From: Cellvibrio sp. PSBB006
Lineage (GTDB): Bacteria > Pseudomonadota > Gammaproteobacteria > Pseudomonadales > Cellvibrionaceae
NCBI RefSeq assembly: GCF_002162135.1
Contig: NZ_CP021382.1
Location: forward strand, 2,664,001 to 2,728,000
Direction: 5' to 3'
DNA: 64,000 nucleotides
Shown here: piece by piece, positions 4,031-26,775 of the stretch
How the letters are laid out: the number at the start of each line of letters is the position of its first letter
Numbering within the stretch: position 1 is the stretch's first letter
The notes under the pieces: generated by a model
The model's database searches: none
What the model saw: only the letters and a program-made list of their open reading frames with translations
What the model was told of the DNA's origin: nothing
Program-made: the position numbers and the translations under genes

Positions 4031-5452
4031 CTACTCAATGGCTGGCGCCAATGCCACCGAAAACGCAGCGCGCTCAATGCCGTTTTCCAATCGAAATAAA
4101 AATTTATTGCGCCCTTGTTGCAGGTGTACCTTACGGTGCCCTTGCGCTGGCGACCAAACCCGCTCGTGGTCGGTGCTTTGCCAGACCAGCATGTCGTTAA
4201 CCCACAGCTTGGATTGATCGTCGCTGCCTATCGCTAGCCATAAATCCTGCGCGTGTTCTGAGAACACTTCGGTGTAGGCGTAGTAAATCGCATAGTCGGT
4301 AAAATCTGGCGGGATGATCGGCAGGTGATCAAATTGTATATGTTGCCATTGGAGCAAGCGGTTACTGTCGCCGATATAAAGCGCATCTAAATCAATACTG
4401 ATTTCCGGTGGAAAACGGGTGTGGATATTTGCCCGACCGGGGTTGGGAAACGGACCAATAAAATACCAGGCGTTGAGTACAACCCATTCAGCTTTTTCTC
4501 CAGATGCGGCGAGCTTGCGTGAATAAACCAGTTTTTGCCGCTGATTAATGTGAGGCGCATTTAAGCGTTTCTTTTCGCCATCATCAATAGCATAGAGTTC
4601 GCTTGCCTGACCGCTAGCGAGCGATCTCATGGCCTGGCTTACATCTTGAACAGAACCTCGGGCCATGCCGCTAAAGTAATGTTCAACCGAGAGCGGGTTG
4701 TTGGGATCAAGGCCCTGGCCGCCATTACCATTTCCACCATTGCTTTCGCTCTCGCCCTGTTGAAGTTCAGCGCTGTTGCCTTGTTGTTTGGCGGCTTCGC
4801 TGCGCATCATTTTACTTAACAGCTCGCGCGCTTCCCGTTGGTTTTTTGAAACAGCCTGTACAAGCTCTTCATCGGACAGCGGCTCAACAGAATCTTCTGC
4901 TGAGGCCTGCTCAGGTGTGTCGGTCTCTGTTTCTGTTTCCCTTTCCGTTTCCGCTTTTTCGGCTAATGCAGATAACTTTTCCTCCAGTACTTCATCACTT
5001 GCAGCGCGGATCTCTTGCAGTAACTGTTCTGAGCGAGCTAGCAACTCTTGCATGGATTCTGGTGGTCGTTCCGAATCGGATTCAGTCGTCGAATTTGAAT
5101 CAGAAGGCGACTGTTCTGGCGTGCGCGACTCTTCTGTGCGCGACAGGGCGTCCACCATTTTCTTTACGGCTTCCATGTCATCCACACGTTCACGCATCGC
5201 GTGCTGGCGACTTTCGCGGGTATATTCCCGTGCTATGTCATGTGCGGGTGTTTCGGGTATTTCCGGCGTAAAAAGATCTGGACTCTGAAGCAGAAAAAGA
5301 ATGATCGCGATATGCGCCCATACCGACAAGCCAAGAAAAGGATTGCTACCCAGAAAAGCCTCCAGGCCCGAGGGTTTAGGCTTCGCGCTGGTTTTGTCTG
5401 GCCCGGTGTGCGTGGGTTTAGTATTCGGCACGGGACGCTGCTCGCAAACCAA
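4031..5452 (-). CDS. TonB-position envelope protein: one membrane helix, acidic coiled-coil linker, C-terminal beta-rich domain
   Basis: A 473-aa protein of unknown function. It has a short cytoplasmic N-terminus, one membrane helix (about residues 42-60, VWAHIAIILFLLQ), then a long Glu/Ser/Thr-rich, coiled-coil-prone segment (about 70-230) with ETETET repeats, a Gly/Asn-rich hinge, and a beta-rich C-domain (about 320-473) with WYFIGPFPN and SKLWVNDMLVW. That order resembles TonB in topology, but I see no proline-rich spacer or TonB C-terminal signature. The C-domain looks like sugar-binding or PA14-type sandwiches (inference). The start is uncertain: TTG at 5452 or GTG at 5431; both overlap the exbD end. 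Confidence 0.75.
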   Translation of the reverse strand: MVCEQRPVPNTKPTHTGPDKTSAKPKPSGLEAFLGSNPFLGLSVWAHIAIILFLLQSPDLFTPEIPETPAHDIAREYTRESRQHAMRERVDDMEAVKKMVDALSRTEESRTPEQSPSDSNSTTESDSERPPESMQELLARSEQLLQEIRAASDEVLEEKLSALAEKAETERETETETDTPEQASAEDSVEPLSDEELVQAVSKNQREARELLSKMMRSEAAKQQGNSAELQQGESESNGGNGNGGQGLDPNNPLSVEHYFSGMARGSVQDVSQAMRSLASGQASELYAIDDGEKKRLNAPHINQRQKLVYSRKLAASGEKAEWVVLNAWYFIGPFPNPGRANIHTRFPPEISIDLDALYIGDSNRLLQWQHIQFDHLPIIPPDFTDYAIYYAYTEVFSEHAQDLWLAIGSDDQSKLWVNDMLVWQSTDHERVWSPAQGHRKVHLQQGRNKFLFRLENGIERAAFSVALAPAIE

Positions 5453-5858
5453 TATTGGTAAGCCCCTCGAACTCGCATAAATCCATCAAATGAACAATAT
5501 GCTGTAAGGGTGTGTTGCGGTCGCCATCAATCCGAATGCGTCGATCGGGATTTGCAGCGGCTTGCTCTTTGAGCACCTGATGCAACTCCGTCACGCTCAG
5601 TCGGTTGTGATTCATGTACAAATGCCCTTTGTAATCAATCGCAATAACCAGGGGTTCTGGTAAACCGTCAGCGACCGACATCGCAGCGGCTGATTCCGGT
5701 AATTTAATTGAGAGTTGCTGGAGCTCTGGATTCTCGTCAATTTTTTGCTGCTGAAATGATGTGGCAACCAGGAAAAAAATAAGCAGCAGGAAAATACAAT
5801 CGAGCAAAGGCGCCATGCTCGGTTCCATGTTTTCGTCGTCATCGAGATTAATACGCAT
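5418..5858 (-). CDS. exbD: ExbD/TolR-family biopolymer transport protein
   Basis: Proton-channel partner of ExbB, 146 aa. A short cytoplasmic N-terminus (MRINLDDDEN) precedes one membrane helix at about residues 17-37, which carries the conserved Asp20 (PLLDCIFLLLIFF) needed for proton coupling. The rest is periplasmic, with the usual C-terminal ExbD fold. It starts 4 bp after exbB and its last 35 bases overlap the next reading frame, so the genes are tightly packed. ExbD and TolR are hard to separate by sequence; the TonB-dependent receptor in the cluster favours ExbD. Confidence 0.92.
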   Translation of the reverse strand: MRINLDDDENMEPSMAPLLDCIFLLLIFFLVATSFQQQKIDENPELQQLSIKLPESAAAMSVADGLPEPLVIAIDYKGHLYMNHNRLSVTELHQVLKEQAAANPDRRIRIDGDRNTPLQHIVHLMDLCEFEGLTNIGLRAASRAEY

Positions 5859-5862
5859 TGTG

Positions 5863-6561
5863 TTACTCCCTGGCAGAAAACCATTCAGCCGTTAATTCGT
5901 TGATGACTTCCTCAAGCGAAATACCGTACATCACCGTGCGGCTTTTAAAGTAGTGATGAAAACCCAGGGCGGGTATGGCTGCGCTTAAACCTGCAGCCGT
6001 GGTCAGCAAGGCTTTGGAAATACCATCGGCGAGAATAGCCGGATCACCAATCGAACCCGTTGCCGCCACCACGTAAAAGGCTTCAATCATACCCAGCACC
6101 GTGCCGAGCAATCCGGCCAGTGGCGCAATCGTTGCTACCACGGCTAAGGGATAAGCGCGCTGAAGATGGCGACGTAAATCCATTGAAGCAATATCGCCCG
6201 CACCCGTCGAAATGGCTTGCAGGCTTTGATGTCGGTGCTGATTGATAAACCCCAACACTTTACCCAGCGTACTGCCACGCGATTTGCAAAGCTCGGCAAT
6301 GGCGTCGTGATGTCCCGCCTGCCACAACTCGCGTACCTGTTGTGTCAGCCCGTCGGGAATAATGAATTTCTTGCGCAACCCCGCGAAGCGCTCGAACACG
6401 ACCCCCACAGCCATAACCGAAAGCCCAAGAATAATCACCCCGGTCACACCAAATAAACTCAGTGTCTTGGCAAGCGTTAATTCTGCCGACCATGCGAACG
6501 AAGAATAGGTGATGAAATAGCTGACAGCACCGACGAAAAAGACAGTTTTCTTAAAATCCAT
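5863..6561 (-). CDS. exbB: ExbB/TolQ/MotA-family proton channel protein
   Basis: Inner-membrane proton channel subunit, 232 aa. Hydrophobic segments sit at about residues 5-25 (signal-like), 36-56, 137-160 and 180-205. The family signature is seen in PLAGLLGTVLGMIEAF and in the last helix with TTAAGLSAAIPAL. It should use the proton gradient with ExbD to energise outer-membrane import. First gene of the minus-strand cluster, so its promoter should lie in 6562-6929, divergent from the xylanase gene. Confidence 0.92.
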   Translation of the reverse strand: MDFKKTVFFVGAVSYFITYSSFAWSAELTLAKTLSLFGVTGVIILGLSVMAVGVVFERFAGLRKKFIIPDGLTQQVRELWQAGHHDAIAELCKSRGSTLGKVLGFINQHRHQSLQAISTGAGDIASMDLRRHLQRAYPLAVVATIAPLAGLLGTVLGMIEAFYVVAATGSIGDPAILADGISKALLTTAAGLSAAIPALGFHHYFKSRTVMYGISLEEVINELTAEWFSARE

Positions 6562-6929
6562 AAACGCTCCTGGTTTTGATTATTCTGGTAGATAGCTCGC
6601 AATCATTGCTGATGCTGGTGGGGAATTGTAGTGCTATTTGTCATCAGGTTTTGATGATTCGTGATGCGATACGCAATCCACATAATTAGAGAAAGTGACA
6701 TGCGCCACACCTTAATTTCAAATTGACAATATCCTCGATCAGTTGTTTACTCTCCGACGGCGCCCGATGTCGGCGATACGACCAATAACGTTTAATAATA
6801 GGTTCAAATAAGCAGTAGGCCTCGCTATTCACTTTTGTTGTTATGTATCGAACCTTCCGATGTTCAGGCGTCTCGGTGTAGTAATCAGCAATGCTCCCAT
6901 GCCAATAACTTAAACAGGAGTTCGAAAAA
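6562..6929. other. Divergent intergenic region, exbB / xylanase
   Basis: This 368-bp stretch separates two divergently transcribed genes and should hold both promoters. No convincing gene is present: a minus-strand reading frame here runs on into the xylanase start and has no family resemblance. The xylanase side carries ACAGGAG about 10 bases before its ATG. I cannot assign a specific operator. Confidence 0.5.
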
Positions 6930-8651
6930 ATGACCATCCATTTACCCAAAAATCTGCTCTTTGCAGCAGCAATACTAACGTCAGCCCAAGCAGCGCATGC
7001 GCTGACTTCCGGCTCGGCCGAAGCCACTCTGAACGTCAATAACAATTGGGGTTCAGGTTATTGCGCCAATGTCACCATTGCCAACAATGGCAACCAGGCC
7101 ATTACGTCCTGGACGGTTGGCCTGAACCTTAATGGCACGACCATCAGCAATCTCTGGAGCGGCAACCTCAGTGGCGTTACGGTAACGCCCGCCCCGTACA
7201 ATGCAAACGTGGCGCCGGGCAGCAACACCAGTTTTGGTTTTTGTGCCAACGGTAGCGCGACACCCGCACTGGCGACGTTTTCCGTTCAAGGCGGCGGAGG
7301 CCCAATCAGCAGTTCAAGCAGTTCTATTAATTCGAGCAGTTCCGTTAGCTCTATCAGTTCGAGCAGCTCCAGCAGTTCGGCTCCTGGCGGTAACCACAGC
7401 GTCACCGTGCGCATGAGCGGCGTCACCGGCGATGAAAGTGTCAGCTTGCAAATCGGTGGCCAGACCATCCAGACGTGGACCCTGAGCGTCGGCATGCTCG
7501 ACTACACCGTACAGACCAACGCTACTGGCGAGCTGCGTGTTGCGTTTACCAACGACGCGGGTGATCGCGATGTCGAAGTGGATTACATCATCGTCAATGG
7601 TGTGACCTATCAGGCCGAAGATCAGGAAGATAACACCGGCGCCTGGGACGGAGAGTGTGGTGCGGGGTCCTTCTCGCAGATGCTGCATTGCAACGGTTCC
7701 ATCGGCTTTGGCAATCCGTTCAATGGCGGCAACCCATCGTCCAGTTCCAGCAGCACATCAAGCTCCAGCAGCTCTAACCCCAACCCGGGCAACCCGAATT
7801 TCCCCGATTTCTTCGTGGGTAATATCACCACTAGCGGCGCGGTTCGCTCTGATTTCACCCAGTACTGGGATCAGATTACGCCGGAAAACGAAGGTAAGTG
7901 GGGCTCGGTAGAAGGTACGCGCGACCAGTATAACTGGGGTCCGCTGGACGCCATCTACAACTACGCTCGCGCGAACGGTATTCCTGTCAAAGCGCATACC
8001 CTGGTGTGGGGTAGTCAGCGTCCTGGCTGGATTGATGGCTTGAGTGCCGCGGAGCAACGCGCGGAAATTGAAGAGTGGATTCGCGATTACTGCACACGCT
8101 ACCCGGATACAGCGATGATTGACGTGGTGAACGAAGCGCTGCCTTCGCACGCCCCGGCAAACTATGCGGCCAATGCGTTTGGCAGCAACTGGATCACTGA
8201 GTCGTTCCGTTTGGCGCGCCAGCATTGTCCGAATGCCGTTCTGATCTACAACGACTATAACTTCATGACCTGGGATACCGATGCCATCATCAACATGATT
8301 CGCCCAGCCGTGAACTCCGGTTATGTCGATGCGCTGGGCCTTCAGGCGCACAGCTTGTATTCCCCGCAAATCTGGACCGCTCAGCAAATCCAGAACAAGC
8401 TGGATCAGATTTCCGAGTTGGGCCTGCCGCTGTACATTTCCGAGTATGACATCGAAGCGACGAATGATCAGACTCAGTTGCAGTACATGCAGATGCACTT
8501 CCCGATCTTCTACAACCACCCCAATGTGGCTGGCATTACCCTGTGGGGTTATGTTGTGGGCGCCACCTGGCGTGACGGCACCGGCCTGATCCAAAGCAAT
8601 GGCCAGCAACGTCCCGCCATGCAGTGGTTGATGGAGTATCTGAACCGCTAA
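6930..8651 (+). CDS. Secreted endo-1,4-beta-xylanase, CBM2-CBM60-GH10
   Basis: Extracellular xylan-degrading enzyme, 573 aa. Signal peptide about residues 1-24 (cut near AHA-L). Residues about 25-120 form a CBM2-type module with Trp residues and a Cys pair (GSGYC, FGFC). A serine linker (about 126-152) leads to a CBM60-like xylan-binding module (about 155-265, with EVDYIIVNG and paired Cys), then a second serine linker and the GH10 barrel (about 292-573). Acid/base Glu402 is in DVVNEAL and nucleophile Glu505 in YISEYDIEA. Poly-serine linkers are typical of Cellvibrio and relatives. Monocistronic, with a strong terminator 31 bp downstream. Confidence 0.95.
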   Translation: MTIHLPKNLLFAAAILTSAQAAHALTSGSAEATLNVNNNWGSGYCANVTIANNGNQAITSWTVGLNLNGTTISNLWSGNLSGVTVTPAPYNANVAPGSNTSFGFCANGSATPALATFSVQGGGGPISSSSSSINSSSSVSSISSSSSSSSAPGGNHSVTVRMSGVTGDESVSLQIGGQTIQTWTLSVGMLDYTVQTNATGELRVAFTNDAGDRDVEVDYIIVNGVTYQAEDQEDNTGAWDGECGAGSFSQMLHCNGSIGFGNPFNGGNPSSSSSSTSSSSSSNPNPGNPNFPDFFVGNITTSGAVRSDFTQYWDQITPENEGKWGSVEGTRDQYNWGPLDAIYNYARANGIPVKAHTLVWGSQRPGWIDGLSAAEQRAEIEEWIRDYCTRYPDTAMIDVVNEALPSHAPANYAANAFGSNWITESFRLARQHCPNAVLIYNDYNFMTWDTDAIINMIRPAVNSGYVDALGLQAHSLYSPQIWTAQQIQNKLDQISELGLPLYISEYDIEATNDQTQLQYMQMHFPIFYNHPNVAGITLWGYVVGATWRDGTGLIQSNGQQRPAMQWLMEYLNR

Positions 8652-13110: not shown

Positions 13111-14613
13111 CTAGAGCGACGACAATATCTTAAGCAATTGCGGAAGGTCGACCGGTTTTACCAGATGGTGATCAAAGCCTGCGTGAAGCGACTTTTGCCG
13201 ATCACTGTTCTGACCGTAGCCGGTAATGGCAATCATCAGGGAGGATGCTGTGTCAGGGCGATTGCGCAGTTGTCGCGCGAGGGTGATGCCATCCATGTCG
13301 GGCAATCCAATATCGAGCAAACAGGCTTTTGGCGATTCAGTCGCAACCCGATCAAGGGCGGCCCTGGCGCTGTGTTCAATAGAAACCTCATAGCCGGCAA
13401 TTTCCAGAATAGTTCCCAGTGTCGTCGCCGCATCGACATTGTCATCCACCACCAATACGCGAGGGGATGATTGCACCGGCGGTAATTCAGGAAGCGGGGT
13501 TCGCGCGGGCATGTTCTGATGCGCAACGCGGGGCAAGGTTAATGTAAACGTGCTGCCTCTCCCAAGCCCGGCACTGTGCGCCGCCACGCTGCCGCCGTGC
13601 AAGCTGACAAGACTCTTGACGATAGCGAGCCCTATTCCCAAACCGCCCTGGGTGCGATCTGAATTTCTTTCGCCTTGGGCGAACATATCAAATACACGAT
13701 TAAGGACACTCGGTTCCATTCCGATACCATTATCCTCAACCGTAAAAATAACACTCGCATCATCGACTTCGACACTGAGAGAAATATCACCGCCCGAAGG
13801 CGTATATTTCGCCGCGTTATTCAAAATGTTGGCAATGATCTGCACCAATCTTTTTTGATCACCAAAGATTGAGGCAGCAACCGGTGCGTCGCGCACGCTT
13901 AAGTGATGTTGTCGCGAATCCATGATCGGGCGAACCTGCTCCACGGCGCTGGCCACAATTTGCCATGCGTCCTGAATGCCCTGGTCGAGCGTAACCAGCC
14001 CGCGCGATACTCTGGACACATCCAGCAAGTCATCAATAAGACCGGTCATGTGGCGCACTTGCCGCGAAATAATTTCGCTGGTTTGTTGAATTCTTTCGCG
14101 ATCCAAGGTTGGCACACTGAGCAATTCAGACGCCGCACTGATCGGCGCCAGAGGGTTGCGCAATTCATGCGCGAGCATCGCGAGGAACTCATCTTTGCGC
14201 CGATCAATTTCACGCATCTCGTATTGCCGTTTACGCGCACGCAATACCGACGTGGCGGCGCTGACGAGCGTTACGCTCCTGACGGGCCGGTCCAGCAAGG
14301 TAACATTGCCCAACTTGAGATAGCGACTGCGCATGTCCGGTGTGTCGGGGGCAGTTTGCCGCAGCACCAAAAAAGGAAAATCAGACCAGGTAGGTTGATT
14401 ATCAAGAAATGGGCGAACCACTTTCAGGAATTCTACAGTCAGCGCTTCATCCGCCAGGATAATGGCACCAGCCCCCTTCCCCATTTCTTCAAACGCTTCA
14501 TCGAATCGGGTGCACACATAGCAATCCATCTGCGCGCGTTCGAGAACGCCAGCCAATAGCCTACCGTCCTTGCCGGTAGGTGCATAAATCAGTAGACGGC
14601 TTTCCATAATCAT
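13111..14613 (-). CDS. Hybrid sensor histidine kinase with C-terminal receiver
   Basis: Soluble kinase of 500 aa. An N-terminal receiver-like domain (about residues 4-122) lacks a clear phosphoacceptor, then a short coiled segment leads to HisKA with His149 (MLAHELRNPLAP), HATPase with NILNNAAKYT, DNGIGM and GLGIGLAIVKSLV, and a C-terminal receiver with phosphoacceptor in CLLDIGLPDMDG and HHLVKPVD. No membrane segment. It follows the KaiC-like gene by 35 bp on the same strand. KaiC-like ATPases next to such kinases recur in bacteria, so the pair probably works as one signalling module. Start ATG 14613 has AGGTG upstream. Confidence 0.92.
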   Translation of the reverse strand: MIMESRLLIYAPTGKDGRLLAGVLERAQMDCYVCTRFDEAFEEMGKGAGAIILADEALTVEFLKVVRPFLDNQPTWSDFPFLVLRQTAPDTPDMRSRYLKLGNVTLLDRPVRSVTLVSAATSVLRARKRQYEMREIDRRKDEFLAMLAHELRNPLAPISAASELLSVPTLDRERIQQTSEIISRQVRHMTGLIDDLLDVSRVSRGLVTLDQGIQDAWQIVASAVEQVRPIMDSRQHHLSVRDAPVAASIFGDQKRLVQIIANILNNAAKYTPSGGDISLSVEVDDASVIFTVEDNGIGMEPSVLNRVFDMFAQGERNSDRTQGGLGIGLAIVKSLVSLHGGSVAAHSAGLGRGSTFTLTLPRVAHQNMPARTPLPELPPVQSSPRVLVVDDNVDAATTLGTILEIAGYEVSIEHSARAALDRVATESPKACLLDIGLPDMDGITLARQLRNRPDTASSLMIAITGYGQNSDRQKSLHAGFDHHLVKPVDLPQLLKILSSL

Positions 14614-14648
14614 TTACAACACCTGAAATCTGCAGTCCAATCGCTCAT

Positions 14649-16148
14649 CTACTTGGTTATTTCCTGTGACCTAATATCATCGAGAGGACTTACAACGGAT
14701 GGCACACCGGTCAGCACGCCCTGAAAATTATTGAGCACTGCTCCAACTTCAATTCCATTCTTGGTAATACAGAGTCGGCGTAGTGTCGTTTCGTGAGCAC
14801 TGCCACGTTTTTTGAAAACCGATATCGCTTTTTCTACCGAACCACGCGCTTCGAAATAACGCAGAATCAAAACGTTATCTGCCATATAGCTCACATCGAT
14901 TCCGGTGGTCATTGTCCCAACCATACCCTGTTGGACACCAATAAGAAACGTCGCCACGCCACGCTGGCCAAGATAAGTTAAAACCTCATGCAAATGCGTC
15001 GAAAGAAAACGCGCATGGGGCATGGCATTCAGATAGCCGTTCAAGCTATCAATCACAATCACTTTCGCTCCGTCATCCGCCGACTTACACACAGCGTGTG
15101 AAAATTCTCCCGGCGACATTTCAGCAGGATCAATTTGATGCACACTGAGCAAGCCGGACTCAAAAGGTGCGCGTAAATCCAGGCCGATGCCTTTGCTGCG
15201 ATTGAGAAGTGTGTTGAACGATTCTTCGAACAGAAACATGGAGGCTTTGTCGCCGCTCTCTGTTACCGCTTTTACAAATTGATTAGCCAAACTGGATTTT
15301 CCCGTACCGGGTGGTCCGGAAATCAGTGTGCTGGAACCTTCTTCGATTCCGCCGCCCAGCAACGCATCGAATGCATCCAGTCCGCTTTTAATTTGCCCCC
15401 GCTCTGCCAACTCGCGTGATTCAGCAGCGATAACGTTGGGGTACACAACAATCCCACCGGTGATAATGCTGTAATCATGCGGTCCACGACGGTAGGCAAT
15501 GCCGCGATATTTCAGTATCCGCACAACGCGCCGTTCGGCTCCGTATTCAGAATCAAAATGCTGCAGTGAAATCACACCGTGGGTAATACTGCGCACTTGT
15601 AAATCCCGGCGAATGGATGACTTGTCATCAAGTAACAGCGCTGTGCATGAACGTCGTGCAAAGTATTGCTTAAGGCCGAGCACATGCCGGCGATACCGCA
15701 ACGCATCGCCGGACAACAGTTGTAGCTCCGACAAAGAGTCCAGCACAACACGTGTGGGGCGCAGCTTCTCTATCATTTCAAGGATGAGATTATTCGTTTC
15801 ACTCAGCTCCACCTCTGACGGATGAAGCGCCGTGTACTGCTCAGCCGGATCAAGCAAACCTTCTTCCGGAATCACCTCATGCACTGTCACACCATCCATT
15901 GAAAAACCGTGTGAATCAGCAACGGCTCGCAGCTCTACTTCATTTTCGGCAAGCGTGACATACAACACTTTTTCACCTTGCCGCGCACCCTCAATCAGAA
16001 ATTGCAGCGCCATGGTGGTCTTGCCCGAGCCCGGATCACCTTCGACGAGATAAAGCCGTTCTTTCGTTAACCCGCCTCCCAATACAAGGTCGAGCCCAGG
16101 AACACCCGAGGAGATAAAATCTTTGCTCACGGTATTTTGCGTAGCCAT
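14649..16148 (-). CDS. KaiC-like double-domain RecA-superfamily ATPase
   Basis: ATPase of 499 aa made of two tandem KaiC domains. The first has Walker A GDPGSGKTT (Lys43) and Walker B-like VVLDSLSEL; the second has GPPGTGKSS (Lys284) and KVIVIDSLNGY. It resembles the KaiC/RadA-like family found outside cyanobacteria with no KaiA and often no KaiB, and I see neither here. Start ATG 16148. First gene of a two-gene unit with the hybrid kinase. Role in timing is not shown; a stress- or signal-dependent ATPase is the safer inference. Confidence 0.92.
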   Translation of the reverse strand: MATQNTVSKDFISSGVPGLDLVLGGGLTKERLYLVEGDPGSGKTTMALQFLIEGARQGEKVLYVTLAENEVELRAVADSHGFSMDGVTVHEVIPEEGLLDPAEQYTALHPSEVELSETNNLILEMIEKLRPTRVVLDSLSELQLLSGDALRYRRHVLGLKQYFARRSCTALLLDDKSSIRRDLQVRSITHGVISLQHFDSEYGAERRVVRILKYRGIAYRRGPHDYSIITGGIVVYPNVIAAESRELAERGQIKSGLDAFDALLGGGIEEGSSTLISGPPGTGKSSLANQFVKAVTESGDKASMFLFEESFNTLLNRSKGIGLDLRAPFESGLLSVHQIDPAEMSPGEFSHAVCKSADDGAKVIVIDSLNGYLNAMPHARFLSTHLHEVLTYLGQRGVATFLIGVQQGMVGTMTTGIDVSYMADNVLILRYFEARGSVEKAISVFKKRGSAHETTLRRLCITKNGIEVGAVLNNFQGVLTGVPSVVSPLDDIRSQEITK

Positions 16149-18318: not shown

Positions 18319-18354
18319 CTTTATTGATTGCGCAATTTCAAAACTCCAATAACC

Positions 18355-18388
18355 CGTAGGTTGAATTAGCCAAAGGCGTAATCCGACA
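18355..18388. repeat. Dispersed palindromic repeat, copy 1
   Basis: Degenerate copy of a family whose core reads GTAGGT(C/T)G(A/G)ATTA...TAATCCGACA. It lies 37 bp after the AraC stop codon. Four further copies are at 41346, 46302, 48870 and 54108. Confidence 0.7.
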
Positions 18389-18471
18389 AAACAAAAACCG
18401 TGTAATACCGCGTAATTGACTTTCCGCCCCAATATCCCGCATTAAAACCAATAAACCCATGCAAAAGAATT

Positions 18472-18911: not shown

Positions 18912-19628
18912 GTGGCTCGTCTCACAAAAGGACAAAAAGAGTTTATTAAAGAAAGAACAATAAGTTTTTTTGAAAACTTATTGTCATTTCATGTTGCATA
19001 TCAAGCAGCTCAATTACTTCATAATAATGCCCAGGAGAACTGGAGAGAATTCGAAGATTTTCTTCACATGGACTACCCCATAAAAGGAATAGGCATAAAA
19101 GCGACACGTAAAAATTTAGATGAACCCGACGAGGATTGGGGTGGCTTTCTTCATAGTCAGGAACCGTTGAGTCCAGCACATGTTGCTCCCGAGCTATCCT
19201 ATTATCCATTGGAGGCCGCATCATCAGCTTATATTTATACCCTGCTAGAGAACTTTGGTAATGAGATATCTGAAAATGTAAATCCGGGCGGTTTAAAAAA
19301 TCGACAAGCATGGCATTACGGTGTGCACGGTGACTTAAATATTTCAGATGAAAAAACTGTAGATAAAGCGAAGAAAGGGTTTGCCAAATCGTTTTCAGTT
19401 GCAGAGAGAAAAATCACAAAAACCGCCATTAAAAGATTGGTTTTACTAAAAAGCGCAAGGAACGAATTCATGCATGAAGGGAGCTATTCCTGTGAGTTTA
19501 GCGAATTTTTTCAGTGTTCAATCCAAACCGTTTGCCACATATATTTTATGCTCCTTCCAAGTGAAAAAGATATTTCAGTATATCCATACGAAGATTTTAA
19601 TGGTAAGTGGAAAAACTCTAAAAAGTGA
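18912..19628 (+). CDS. HEPN-motif protein upstream of SIR2-HerA
   Basis: A 238-aa AT-rich protein with no family I can name. It is largely alpha-helical and has the HEPN RNase signature R-x4-H (Arg183 to His188, in KSARNEFMHEG) inside a helix-rich C-terminal half, preceded by a basic helix (KKGFAKSFSVAERKITK). HEPN domains with this motif are often metal-independent RNases in defence and toxin systems. The start is GTG 18912, with GAGGGAGAG upstream. It lies 196 bp upstream of the SIR2 gene on the same strand and could be a third component or an independent unit. RNase activity is inferred from the motif only. Confidence 0.7.
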   Translation: MARLTKGQKEFIKERTISFFENLLSFHVAYQAAQLLHNNAQENWREFEDFLHMDYPIKGIGIKATRKNLDEPDEDWGGFLHSQEPLSPAHVAPELSYYPLEAASSAYIYTLLENFGNEISENVNPGGLKNRQAWHYGVHGDLNISDEKTVDKAKKGFAKSFSVAERKITKTAIKRLVLLKSARNEFMHEGSYSCEFSEFFQCSIQTVCHIYFMLLPSEKDISVYPYEDFNGKWKNSKK

Positions 19629-19824: not shown

Positions 19825-20904
19825 ATGCCAGATAAATTTAACCTATATGATGTTTACGAACAGAACTTAAATTTTTTGTTTGGCGCTGGTGCGTCTTATG
19901 GATTTCTCCCAACATTGGCGTTAAATATTAAAGATCGTGAAGGAACGCATTATACTTTTGAGACTTTGGCAAAAGAGCTGGATAAGGGCAGTACCCGCGA
20001 TCTATATACTCTGCTCTTTATGTACTACTTTAAGAAATGCATCAATACCGGATTACCACGACTACCAATGGCACCACATCCACCGTATCGTGCAAAAGTT
20101 CTTAAAGAGTACAAAATTTTCCTAAAAACTCTATTATCAGTATTAGAAAAGCAAAACCGAAATGATAAAAAGTGCAATATATACACGACTAACTACGACA
20201 ATTGCTTTGAGCTGTCTGCTGACTCACTAATGACCGAACAAGCTTTGAACTGTGCAATCAATGACGGAAGTTCCGGATTTCAACAGCGGAAATTTCATAC
20301 AAAGAACTTCAACAATCGCGTCTTACAAAAAGGTATATTTGATAAACACGCCGAATATATTCCGCAAATTAATATCCTTCATCCGCATGGCTCTGTCTAC
20401 TGGCATAAAATTGATAAAAATATTGCGGTCAATTATGGCCATTCACCATATGACATTATTTTTGATTCAGAGCAAGAGAAGCTCCTGAAGGCATTTGAAG
20501 AGTTACTTGACGACAAAAACAGGAATATAAATGATCTGATTGAATTCGAGAAGGATGAGCTTGGCTTATGGGATTGGAGTACCCTGCAAGCTGATACCTT
20601 TTGGGAGAAATATAAAGAAATTCCTATAGTTAATCCCACAAAGTGGAAATTTCATGAAACTGTTTTCGAAGAAGCCTACTACCAGATTCTGCGTCACTTA
20701 AGCTTTGAGCTGGAGCGCCCAAATTCGGTTTTGATAACCTTTGGTTTCTCTTTCGCAGATGAACACATTTTGCACTTAGTGCAGAGGTCCCTGTCTAATC
20801 CCAGCTTAACCGTTTACGTCTCCTGTTTTAACGAAGGTGAAAAGCGTGAGATGCAGAATAAATTTAAAGGTGTAATGGTCAACAAAAACCGGACAAAAAG
20901 TTAA
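19825..20904 (+). CDS. SIR2-like NADase of a SIR2-HerA (Nezha-type) defence system, truncated by an IS
   Basis: N-terminal 349 residues of a SIR2_2-type protein. Seen: nucleotide-binding GAGAS (residues 20-24), TTNYD with Asn123, HPHGS with His186 and His188, and GFSFADEH near the end. In SIR2-HerA systems this subunit destroys NAD+ when phage is sensed. From codon 350 the frame runs into an IS and adds ten foreign residues before TAA at 20904. Without the IS the frame is 379 codons plus stop. Start ATG 19825 fits the family N-terminus; an in-frame start at 19684 adds 47 residues not expected there. Truncation probably impairs HerA coupling. Confidence 0.88.
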
Positions 20905-21755
20905 GCACACTTTTCAAATTCAATCGGGCTTTTGTAGCCCAGAGTTGAATGTGGTCTTCGCGAGTTATACCAGGTCACAATATAAGCTCGCACATCCCGA
21001 ATTGCATCTTCTCGATGGCGATACAAATTATCCCTGATCCACTCCCGTTTCAGGCTGCTAAAGAAGCGCTCCACAACAGCATTGTCCCAACAATTTCCCT
21101 TGCGGCTCATGGAACACACAATACCGTGCTGCTTCAATGAAGTCTGATACTTCAGGCTCGCATATTGCGAACCACGATCCGAATGGTGAATGAGTCCCGC
21201 CGATGGCTTGCGCATATTCACCGCCATCATCAATGCGCGAATCACCAGCGATTTCGTTTGCCGTTTATCCATGCACCAGCCAACAACCCGCCGCGAATAC
21301 AGGTCAATCACCACCGCCAGGTACAGCCATCCTTCTGCTGTCCAAATATAAGTAATGTCTGCAGCCCAGGCTTGATTCGGTGTAACCGGATTGAACTGCC
21401 GATCAAGTATATTCTCCGCTACCGGCAATTTATGGTTGCTGTTGGTGGTAATACGAAACTTACGCTTCTGTTTAACTACCAGCCCCAGCTTTTTCATCAG
21501 TCGTCGTACCCGATACCGCCCCGCCGCAAAACCTTGTGCCTGTAATCGCCGCGCCATGCGTCTGCTGCCCATGCTGCTGTTGGATTCAACAAACAATGCG
21601 CGCATGCAGGTTTCAAACCTCTGCTGTTCCGGATCAGGCTTATCCTGTTGCTGTCCCAGCCACTCGTAATAACGACTGCGACTGACACTTAGCATGCGAC
21701 ACAAGTGTTTTACCCGGCAGCGCGAAGCATGCTCTCGGATAAACGCAAATCTCAC
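20901..21755 (-). CDS. IS3-family transposase OrfB (DDE integrase core)
   Basis: Catalytic part of the transposase, 284 codons in this frame. The DDE triad is visible: Asp in WAADITYIW, Asp in [12 protein letters not shown], Glu in [18 protein letters not shown]. The frame overlaps orfA by 4 bases and could begin at GTG 21755, but IS3 members normally make an OrfAB fusion by -1 frameshifting. A slippery run (TTTTAAAAAAAG on the minus strand, near 21784-21796) lies just before the overlap and would serve. Confidence 0.94.
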
Positions 21756-22051
21756 CGCATATGCTTCGCGAAGTAGCTGCTGGCTTTTTTTAAAATATCA
21801 TTATCCAACTGTAGCTCGCGCACTTGTTTTTCAAGTTCACGGATACGTTTTTGCTCGGGGGTCATCCCGGCTTTTCCCTGGTAATCACTAAAAGGCTGAG
21901 CTTCATGCTCTTTTAGCCAGCGGCGTAGCATATTGTGATTGATATCCAGATGGGCCGCTGCCTCACCTATACTGAAGCCTTGATCGCGAACCAGGGCGAT
22001 GGCTTCAAGTTTGTATTCAGGCGTATATTTCTTTCGTGTTTGCTTGGTCAT
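21752..22051 (-). CDS. IS3-family transposase OrfA (HTH)
   Basis: DNA-binding first frame of the element, 99 aa. The helix-turn-helix reads [20 protein letters not shown] then [11 protein letters not shown], followed by a leucine-zipper-like coiled coil ([16 protein letters not shown]). Length and order are standard for IS3. It overlaps orfB by 4 bases. Confidence 0.94.
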
Positions 22052-22120
22052 AGGACACCTTGATGTTTTACGGTATTATCCGCTTAACTTGGTGTCCGGT
22101 CTAATTAGACCACTTCAAGG

Positions 22121-22214
22121 GTATGCAAATGTCAAATATATTGCCATAGATGATGACCTGACTTTTACTCGCTTTAACAAGCGTGTATTCACTCTTAAAA
22201 AGGATGGTGAGTAA
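22121..22214 (+). pseudogene. Detached C-terminus of the SIR2-like protein
   Basis: The last 30 codons and stop of the interrupted SIR2 gene, separated from the rest by the IS. Joining 19825-20870 to 22121-22214 gives 1,140 bases with no internal stop, and the seam codon AAA-GGG-TAT restores K-G-Y. It reads YANVKYIAIDDDLTFTRFNK onwards and ends at TAA 22212-22214, directly abutting the HerA ATG. It cannot be translated on its own from a normal start in this frame. Confidence 0.9.
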
Positions 22215-23990
22215 ATGAGCATTGCCATCGGAGAGGTCGTATCCGTAAAAGGAATCAACATTGTTATCGAGCTGTATGAGGAATCGAATAAAGAAACGCT
22301 ATTCTACGATGGCAAGAAGTTTAAAGGTGTTTCCATTCAAGAGCATGTCCTGATTAAACGAGGATTTAAAGACATAGTTGCACGCGTACAAGGCGAGTAC
22401 TTGGATGCGCGGCTACATTCTGAAGATAGTGGCAACTATGTCCGAAAAGTAGAGTTGAAACCTATTGGATTTTATCATCAGGAAGAATTCTTCGAGGGCA
22501 TAAAGCATTTACCGATGATTCGGGACGTAGCTTACTTGATGAATGATGAGCAAGTGAGACAGATTTATGGTGAGCCAGATGAAAACTTTGTTGTTGGTGA
22601 GATTTTAAAAGAAGAACTTCCGATATCATTACCTTGGGCAAGTCTTTTCAATACACATATAGGAGTATTTGGAAATACTGGTAGCGGCAAATCTAATACT
22701 CTTACAAATTTATACACGACTCTTTTTCTAAACAAGTTTGAGCAACTAAATGGCAACAGCCATTTTGTTGTAATTGATTTCAATGGTGAGTATACAGGCA
22801 ATCAATTAATTGCCAATCCAGAATACAAAAAAGTTCACGAATTGGATACTCGTTCGGATGATGGCGACAAGTTTCCGTTGAGTGAGAGCGTGTTTTGGGA
22901 CGAAGAGGTTTTCGGTATTCTATTTAAAGCGACGGAGAATACGCAGAAACCATTCTTAAGACGTATCGTGGCTGGCAGGGAGCGATTTAAAGATACTGAG
23001 GACAGCCTTGTTACCTATACAAGGAAAACTATAACTAAAGCACTAATCAGCACATCACCCAAAAAAGAGTATGCCGAACTGATAAGGACTATTGCAGGAG
23101 TAGTTTTAGCAGATGAACTCAAGGATTTAGCCAGAAAGATGAGTTGGTACAGTAAAGATGGGAAGTTCTATATCGTCGGAGGAAATTTTCTCAATGGTGG
23201 TGAAAATGATGCGACATATCGAAATTATTTCAAGCCACACATTGACAATATAACGGTGGGACAACTGGATCATTTTGGAGAGCTAAAACTTCGAATCAAT
23301 CTTCAATTGCTGGCAGATCTAACTGATGAGTATGTCCAGTTTGAACATATACAACCACTTTTGAAACGCGTCGAGGCTTCACTAAAATCTTTAGAGCGCG
23401 TGTTTTCAATTGGTAAAAACCCTGTCAACAACCTCCTGACGGTGATTTCTCTAAGGAGGTCAAATCAAGAAGTTAAGAAAGTCATCCCGTTGCTTTTAGC
23501 AAAATATTATTACAACTCTCATAAGGAAATTGTAATCAACCAAAGTCCTCCAAAACAAACATTCCATATGATAATCGATGAAGCACACAACATTTTGTCG
23601 ATGCAATCGAATCGTGAAAGTGAAAGCTGGAAAGATTATCGATTGGAGCTGTTTGAGGAAATTATTAAAGAAGGGAGGAAATTTGGCTTCTACTTGACGC
23701 TTTCCAGTCAGCGTCCTGCTGATATATCACCAACCATCATGTCTCAAATTCATAATTTCTTTATTCACCGGCTGGTTAACGATAGGGACTTATTGTTACT
23801 GGAAAACTCCATTAGCACGCTGGACTTTCTTTCTCGCTCAATGATACCCAACTTGCCCAAAGGCTGTGCGGTGATAACAGGGACATCATTTGATATTCCT
23901 ATGGTTGTGCAGTTTAAACAACTGGCTAAGGATCACCAACCTGATAGCGGAGATGTAGATTTGAAAGAACTCTGGAAAGATATTTCTTAA
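22215..23990 (+). CDS. HerA-like P-loop ATPase, partner of SIR2
   Basis: Hexameric FtsK/HerA-type ATPase of 591 aa. An N-terminal beta-barrel HAS domain (about residues 1-90) precedes Walker A GNTGSGKSN (Lys159) and Walker B with DEAH at 455-458; the arginine-finger region is near SSQRPADIS. In SIR2-HerA systems it assembles with SIR2 subunits and controls NADase activity. The ATG directly follows the SIR2 stop (TAAATG), so translation was probably coupled; the IS now breaks that message. Length matches known partners of about 580-600 aa. AT-rich like its neighbours. Confidence 0.92.
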   Translation: MSIAIGEVVSVKGINIVIELYEESNKETLFYDGKKFKGVSIQEHVLIKRGFKDIVARVQGEYLDARLHSEDSGNYVRKVELKPIGFYHQEEFFEGIKHLPMIRDVAYLMNDEQVRQIYGEPDENFVVGEILKEELPISLPWASLFNTHIGVFGNTGSGKSNTLTNLYTTLFLNKFEQLNGNSHFVVIDFNGEYTGNQLIANPEYKKVHELDTRSDDGDKFPLSESVFWDEEVFGILFKATENTQKPFLRRIVAGRERFKDTEDSLVTYTRKTITKALISTSPKKEYAELIRTIAGVVLADELKDLARKMSWYSKDGKFYIVGGNFLNGGENDATYRNYFKPHIDNITVGQLDHFGELKLRINLQLLADLTDEYVQFEHIQPLLKRVEASLKSLERVFSIGKNPVNNLLTVISLRRSNQEVKKVIPLLLAKYYYNSHKEIVINQSPPKQTFHMIIDEAHNILSMQSNRESESWKDYRLELFEEIIKEGRKFGFYLTLSSQRPADISPTIMSQIHNFFIHRLVNDRDLLLLENSISTLDFLSRSMIPNLPKGCAVITGTSFDIPMVVQFKQLAKDHQPDSGDVDLKELWKDIS

Positions 23991-25257: not shown

Positions 25258-26070
25258 ATGGATCTTGGTGAAAAAGTCAGCGTAGACATGATTGCGAGCG
25301 AAATGCACGACGAAGAGACGTGCGCTTTCTGTAGCTCAACCGAACCGCCGAAAGACGTCGTCAATGATCTAACCGATGAGCACGATGAAGACGCCGAAGC
25401 CAAGCTCGGCGATAACATGCCCACTTATAAATTCAAGAACGATGCGGGAAAGTTGGGTACCGCGCTCGGCGGCAAGCCGGATGCAAAGATCGTCGCGCTA
25501 GCGAATAAAGACTTTGAAGCCTCGGTAGCAGCGCACCATTTGATTCCGGGTAACGCGGCCCTTAAAGAAAGCCAATTATTCAAGTCGGAAAAATACCTTT
25601 GGAAGGACGGTAAAGCCAAAGGCAATATCGGTTACAACATCAATGCCGGCGAAAATGGCGTCTGGTCGCCGGGCAACTATGGCGTCCGCCCTTGGGGCCC
25701 CGGTGGGGCCGCGTTTAAGTTGGGCAATCCGACGTTGGAGCCAAAAGACTTTGCTTTTGCCGCCATGGACAAATGGCGCACTCAATTTCATGATGCACAT
25801 GCGGATTACAGTTCTTTTGTGAAGGACAGCCTGGATAAGGTGTTTGAAAAACTCGAAGCCAAGAAAGACATATGGTGCCCTGAGGCCAAAAAGAAAGAAG
25901 AGAAAAAGCCTGAGGAAAAAGAGCCTATTTACGCGCTGGTTCAGCGGTTGAATACCATCTCTTCCCGTATGAAAAAGATGCTGACCTTCCCTACCCGCAA
26001 CTGGAAACGTAACATCTATACATCCCGCTTTGTCGAAATGTACATGACTGATAAGTCACACCAGGATTAA
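25258..26070 (+). CDS. AHH-domain nuclease toxin (polymorphic-toxin type)
   Basis: Probable secreted nuclease effector, 270 aa. The middle carries the AHH signature (ASVAAHHLIPGNAAL, about residues 89-103) of the HNH/Endo VII-like superfamily, followed by the conserved NINAGENGVWSP and FHDAHADYSSFV segments. An acidic N-terminus contains CAFC. No signal peptide, PAAR or RHS repeats, so it may be carried by a type VI or similar apparatus not present here. The C-terminal 70 residues are Lys-rich. The next gene, 15 bp downstream, is its likely immunity protein. Base composition is nearer the chromosome than the HEPN/SIR2 genes. Confidence 0.78.
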   Translation: MDLGEKVSVDMIASEMHDEETCAFCSSTEPPKDVVNDLTDEHDEDAEAKLGDNMPTYKFKNDAGKLGTALGGKPDAKIVALANKDFEASVAAHHLIPGNAALKESQLFKSEKYLWKDGKAKGNIGYNINAGENGVWSPGNYGVRPWGPGGAAFKLGNPTLEPKDFAFAAMDKWRTQFHDAHADYSSFVKDSLDKVFEKLEAKKDIWCPEAKKKEEKKPEEKEPIYALVQRLNTISSRMKKMLTFPTRNWKRNIYTSRFVEMYMTDKSHQD

Positions 26071-26085
26071 TGTTCGGAGCTACCT

Positions 26086-26775
26086 ATGTATTATCTGTTA
26101 TCCGCCAATAGCCGTCCTCGCCGCCGCATTGCTGAAACGCCGTTTATAGAGAACGTCAGTTGGTGGCGGGGTGCTGTGATCACGGCACCGCTCCCGAAAC
26201 CACTACCCTTTTCGTTGCACCCGTATCGCCCGTTTTCGGAAGACGAGGATCAGTATATGGGAGCCATTATGGAAACTAACCCGCCGCTTTGGCGTGATGA
26301 TTTCATCCAGGCGCTCCGCGACTGCGGCGTGCATAACTTTGATACCTACGATGTTGCTATCTCAAACCCGGACAACAAGCCGATCATTGATGCGTTTTAT
26401 CAGGAAATGCGCGATGCCGGCGTCGATGATGTGGATCAGTATCTTCGCGATATCGGTTATCAGGAACTCGGGGAGTGGATCGATCCCAAGCCTGGGGCCG
26501 TGTTTACCAATTATAAAGCCGTTAATGTTCTCGGACTCGTTGCTGCCGCCGATATGGCGAAATCCGAAGCCACCGTTCACGATGGCATTCCACTGATTGA
26601 TGTGGATTTTAATTCGTTGGTTATCGATGAAAATAAAACGCGGGGCATCAAGATGTTTCGGCTGGCGGAATCCACTAACGCCATTCTTGTGCATGAATCC
26701 TTGCGTGATGCGCTTCTGGAGAAAGGCTTTGGATCAGATGTTGCCTTTTATGATCTGACAGAAATTGCCCTTTAG
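26086..26775 (+). CDS. Probable immunity protein to the AHH toxin (DUF1629/Imm11-like)
   Basis: A 229-aa protein 15 bp after the toxin gene. The C-terminal half (about residues 160-229) has the Imm11-like flow IKMFRLAESTNAILVHESL then GFGSDVAFYDL. The N-terminal part is less typical: YYLLSANSRP, then DNKPIIDAFYQEMRDAGVDD. AHH toxins are often followed by DUF1629 proteins, which supports the role. The ribosome site is GGAG. Its stop overlaps the convergent beta-helix gene by 4 bp. Family assignment is by eye and moderate. Confidence 0.65.
   Translation: MYYLLSANSRPRRRIAETPFIENVSWWRGAVITAPLPKPLPFSLHPYRPFSEDEDQYMGAIMETNPPLWRDDFIQALRDCGVHNFDTYDVAISNPDNKPIIDAFYQEMRDAGVDDVDQYLRDIGYQELGEWIDPKPGAVFTNYKAVNVLGLVAAADMAKSEATVHDGIPLIDVDFNSLVIDENKTRGIKMFRLAESTNAILVHESLRDALLEKGFGSDVAFYDLTEIAL

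Follow-up and report, generated by a model that had tools for sequence, protein, structure and literature searches.

What remains of a phage-defence pair once an insertion sequence (IS) has entered its first gene is the question raised by a stretch of 64,000 nucleotides in Cellvibrio sp. PSBB006, positions 2,664,001-2,728,000 of a source genome that consists of one contig of 5.26 Mb (the whole stretch is referred to below as the window). The pair is SIR2-HerA (Nezha), a known kind of anti-phage system made of an enzyme cutting nicotinamide adenine dinucleotide (NAD) and its DNA-pump partner, and its SIR2 gene is split in the window by an IS3-family element at a site that is exact to the base. 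The locus is a disrupted SIR2-HerA locus by descent and is not classed as a working system, the SIR2 frame being incomplete; its state is most likely a recent pseudogenisation. Very probably, the pair, itself probably gained horizontally, has had its SIR2 recently inactivated via the transposition of a resident IS3-family element. New here is a second defence gene of the same genome that another copy of the element has split.

The element occupies window positions 20871-22117, with its transposase on the minus strand, and is one of five copies in the genome that are 100% identical over 1247 bp. The ends are the same in each copy, and all five are bordered by 3-bp target duplications (CTC, AAC, AGG, GTT and GGT), the AGG pair standing here at 20868-20870 and 22118-22120. 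Since each of the five identical copies carries a duplication of its own, the ends are exact, and the limits and the AGG duplication given in the initial annotation are correct to the base. Insertion site and recency are both established directly, the identity of the five copies over their whole length pointing to a recent jump. In its overlapping orfA and orfB, DDE integrase core, imperfect terminal repeats and 3-bp duplication the element is like the IS3 family, with no notable difference. Its orfB (20901-21755, minus strand) encodes a DDE transposase of 284 amino acids (aa), matched by NCBIfam transpos_IS3 at 355 bits (cut-off 160) and by Pfam rve; orfA (21752-22051, minus strand), a helix-turn-helix protein of 99 aa matched by Pfam HTH_Tnp_1 (4.8e-15), reaches by itself 62 bits in NCBIfam, under the cut-off. 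The two frames overlap by 4 bases, with an A7-G run close to the overlap, and the termini are imperfect inverted repeats that agree at 27 of the 36 first positions, as counted on the printed end sequences. An element 98% identical to the IS is present in two copies in a same-genus genome (G018), and the search of plasmid records returned none with at least 80% of it.

The interrupted SIR2 gene (19825-20904, plus strand) runs as a frame of 348 codons and 2 bases up to position 20870, the first base of the IS completing codon 349; 10 codons read from the IS follow before the stop at 20904, giving a product of 359 aa. The remainder of the gene lies beyond the element at 22121-22214 on the plus strand, where the frame 22122-22214 codes for 30 residues and a TAA, with the HerA ATG coming right after it at 22215. 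The two parts thus rejoin, as had been proposed, into a single SIR2 frame of 379 codons (349 + 30), against a median of 377 aa in 118 relatives, and the junction of the TAA with the ATG is confirmed in the sequence. The identities of both genes are established directly. The SIR2 product is matched by PADLOC SIR2 (4.1e-50) and Pfam SIR2_2 (1.8e-7), and the cut protein keeps the catalytic-type residues N123 (motif TTNYDN; N123-Y124-D125) and H188 (HPHGS), which are invariant in 40 relatives; a catalytic Asn and His of SIR2 are named in passages of PMC11559045 and PMC11263360, and the equivalence here is by motif.

The protein search with SIR2 gave 2455 relatives, and of the best 120 listed two were the window's own protein, leaving 118. 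The part of each relative past the point of residue 349 was aligned to the 30-residue stub and compared with 200 shuffles. All 118 of these best relatives carry a tail that matches the stub better than every one of the shuffles, with identities from 10 to 29 of the 30 residues (median 21), and none of them is cut back to the truncation point of the window; the tail of P0054 counts just 23 residues, and P0105, a protein much shorter overall (259 aa), still has one. The conservation of the lost part is thereby established directly, and the segment behind the IS is indeed the C-terminus of SIR2 that the initial annotation had taken it to be. The 30 lost residues hold four invariant columns and, by prediction, complete the sirtuin fold as its last strand and helix. 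The statement that the truncated protein keeps its whole catalytic region therefore fails: the catalytic Asn and His are kept, but the predicted last strand and helix are lost, together with invariant residues. A predicted structure model of an intact relative has a SIR2 fold like that of solved SIR2-HerA chains, being closest to the SIR2 chains of the SIR2-HerA entries from E. coli, PsSIR2 and 8yhx.

The partner gene (22215-23990, plus strand) encodes an intact HerA-type ATPase of 591 aa, with PADLOC HerA as its best match (5.7e-175), a DUF87 match (4.6e-14), a Walker A motif (residue 153) and a DE box (from residue 452). A genome scan returned close relatives of this HerA at 13 loci, including Alteromonas, Shewanella, Moritella, Legionella, Marinospirillum and several metagenome-assembled genomes (MAGs), and SIR2 stands directly upstream at 12 of them, which together with the PADLOC score groups the protein with SIR2-linked HerA. 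With the addition of the three loci outside the own genome that ranked best in a HerA search of 195 genomes, an open SIR2 frame was found to abut HerA at 13 of the 16, ending from 11 bp inside to 13 bp before HerA; the uninterrupted two-gene locus that had been suggested for comparison is thus present in relatives, and the abutting order upholds the identification of the pair. In L010, a MAG of the Osedax symbiont Rs1, the frame of SIR2 (4874-5908) breaks after 100 codons, which reflects either a further case of a broken SIR2 or a fault of the assembly. The available flanking DNA of the HerA loci L017 (a Cellvibrionaceae MAG, HerA at 6001-7761) and L022 (G027, HerA with an internal TAA) holds no SIR2, and these are possible orphan or decaying pairs.

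Among the 195 genomes, any HerA match was found in 25, and full-length close HerA in the own genome, in G063, in G183 (64%) and in G027 (53%, the one internal TAA). In the same-genus genomes G001, G004, G010 and G014 the matches are all distant (best E 1e-10 to 3e-18), and in a search of 21 genomes of the genus, with up to 14 candidates per genome scored, none of the places listed in genomes other than the own one covers the SIR2 or HerA genes. The GC content is 38-39% in the two genes and 40% in the stretch before them, against 49.8% in the window, and the pair was probably acquired horizontally. The segment 19696-19785, just before SIR2, recurs at 76-78% identity in the same-genus genomes G002, G003 and G007, which have no HerA match, and may be a repeat or mark the boundary of an insertion. 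The same AT-rich stretch contains a gene for 238 aa (18912-19628) with no match in Pfam or NCBIfam and no relative at the 13 HerA loci.

In gene order, a SIR2-like gene directly followed by the gene of a HerA ATPase, and in the catalytic N and H the locus is like SIR2-HerA (Nezha), also called GAO_19 in PMC11514479; it is unlike it in that SIR2 is interrupted by an IS. In sequence, both proteins are far from the solved SIR2-HerA (best phmmer E 1.3e-6 for SIR2 and 2.8e-30 for HerA). For homologues, PMC11559045 describes a 12:6 assembly of SIR2 and HerA that depletes NAD+, immunity in V. cholerae that is abolished by N168A, H227A or deletion of herA, and an earlier report by which the NADase activity of SIR2 requires HerA; work cited in the review PMC12198126 states that in a Staphylococcus aureus system the binding of HerA opens the NAD+ pocket of SIR2. 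In these published homologues, HerA within the 12:6 complex enables SIR2 to destroy NAD+ upon infection. In the window, the IS removes the last 30 residues of SIR2, with which the sirtuin fold is predicted to end in a strand and a helix, and it also separates herA from any SIR2-coupled translation. The cut SIR2 would then be unable to fold or assemble properly, and the system would be off. By this analysis the cut SIR2 is most likely dead, or inactive without proper contact with HerA.

Several observations weigh against an inactivated system. The HerA reading frame is whole and the catalytic residues of SIR2 are kept; an AAGGA motif precedes the HerA ATG, and a promoter-like site (22052-22079, 9/12) inside the IS, at its right end, is directed at herA, so that HerA may still be made, the promoter-like sites numbering 8 against 6.7 expected by chance. 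The insertion is without secondary decay and so gives no demonstration of relaxed selection. The two proteins stay under the NCBIfam anti-phage cut-offs (59.6 of 500 bits for SIR2, 126 of 850 bits for HerA), and scores so far below place them at a distance from these curated subfamilies. As to the predicted structures, the two AlphaFold models compared are 78% identical in sequence and unlike in length too, and AlphaFold is no test of stability. The open HerA frame, its possible promoter or ribosome-binding site and the two remaining catalytic residues would suit a tolerated truncation, in which SIR2, at 349 residues, would remain able to fold, bind HerA and defend, the IS being neutral; however, the lost segment is kept in every one of the 118 relatives, has four invariant columns and is predicted to belong to the core fold, and this outcome is accordingly judged improbable.

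The retained catalytic residues would equally serve a deregulated NADase, that is, a cut SIR2 which escapes the control of HerA and drains NAD+ at a cost borne by the strain. This is the least likely of the three outcomes that the initial annotation had offered (free of HerA, dead or tolerated), since HerA is reported in PMC11559045 to be required for SIR2 activity and not to be its brake; this makes a lost function more probable than a NADase set free, and of the three it is the dead or inactive protein that is favoured. Moreover, the fold is predicted to be damaged, and a constitutive NADase would be expected to come under strong counter-selection, so that such a state is very unlikely. The IS looks active, with intact open reading frames (ORFs) and five identical copies, and the insertion is bordered by a clean duplication, from which a reversible switch or a mixed population might be imagined, with IS-free cells keeping the system on; however, the assembly has only the inserted form and IS3-type elements seldom excise precisely, which leaves this explanation hardly credible. 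The recent loss of function through the insertion is thus preferred.

A further copy of the same IS, at 1,470,975-1,472,221 of the chromosome (L054:6976-8222) and with the GTT duplication, splits the defence gene PD-Lambda-4_A (chromosome 1,468,492-1,473,503; L054:4493-9504), which is unrelated to SIR2-HerA and lies about 1.2 Mb away. The pieces flanking the IS match positions 4-433 (2.4e-35) and 442-1279 (6.6e-36) of the 1283 positions of the PADLOC profile. Any PD-Lambda-4_A match is found in 6 of 144 genomes of the family, the own one included, with unsplit genes in G103 (profile 1-1283) and G098 (222-1278). As to a second subunit of PD-Lambda-4 beside it, the adjoining gene for 207 aa has no PADLOC match, and tblastn gave no match to it in L060-L062, where the flanks are short.

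Two of the five IS copies are thus within anti-phage genes, in a small sample chosen post hoc. By eye, a third copy lies in AT-rich surroundings shared with a DarT/DarG pair, a fourth where a small gene ends, and the fifth beside another transposase-type element; the 2-kb flanks of these three copies have a GC content of 38.9-49.4%. The first copy was selected because it interrupts a defence gene, so a fair calculation uses the other four; the probability that at least one of these also lies in a defence gene is 0.04-0.08, assuming that defence genes make up 1-2% of the genome. The pattern is sufficiently explained if accessory DNA tolerates insertions, and selection against defence is possible. 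That a recently expanded IS3 element has pruned the phage defence of the lineage, the independent systems SIR2-HerA and PD-Lambda-4 being switched off by separate insertions through counter-selection of costly defence or a preference of the IS for AT-rich defence cargo, is a doubtful proposal.

The DarT and DarG genes (L055:1259-4987, chromosome near 3.78 Mb; PADLOC 1.1e-39 and 9.3e-60) are separated by a different two-ORF transposase-like element (L055 2478-3676), the same ORFs of which recur at L057:7104-8302. Near a further IS copy, L056:6277-6870 has a PADLOC mad2 match (1e-14) to a protein that looks like a generic methyltransferase. Elsewhere in the window, a gene like those of AHH nucleases (Pfam AHH 3.5e-6) is followed by a weakly Imm11-like gene (3.1e-4, just under the gathering score) at 25258-26775, which by these matches looks like a toxin-immunity pair. 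A KaiC-like ATPase adjoins a hybrid histidine kinase/receiver protein at 13111-16148, a block with copies of 69-74% identity in four same-genus genomes, and the short repeat 18349-18398 has at least five further copies of 88-93% identity on the own chromosome among the matches listed.

For the annotation of such loci, it should be kept in mind that the SIR2 of 359 aa and HerA score well in PADLOC, so that a defence-system finder could list the locus as complete. The SIR2 allele is likely a recent and clean loss of function in a known NAD-depleting defence pair, and the natural truncation raises the question whether SIR2 needs its C-terminal strand and helix for the NADase activity or for the coupling to HerA. 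With the same IS in a second defence gene, the genome becomes a small and testable example of IS activity eroding defence; if the pruning of defence by the IS were true, IS bursts would provide a general way for defence systems to be turned over.
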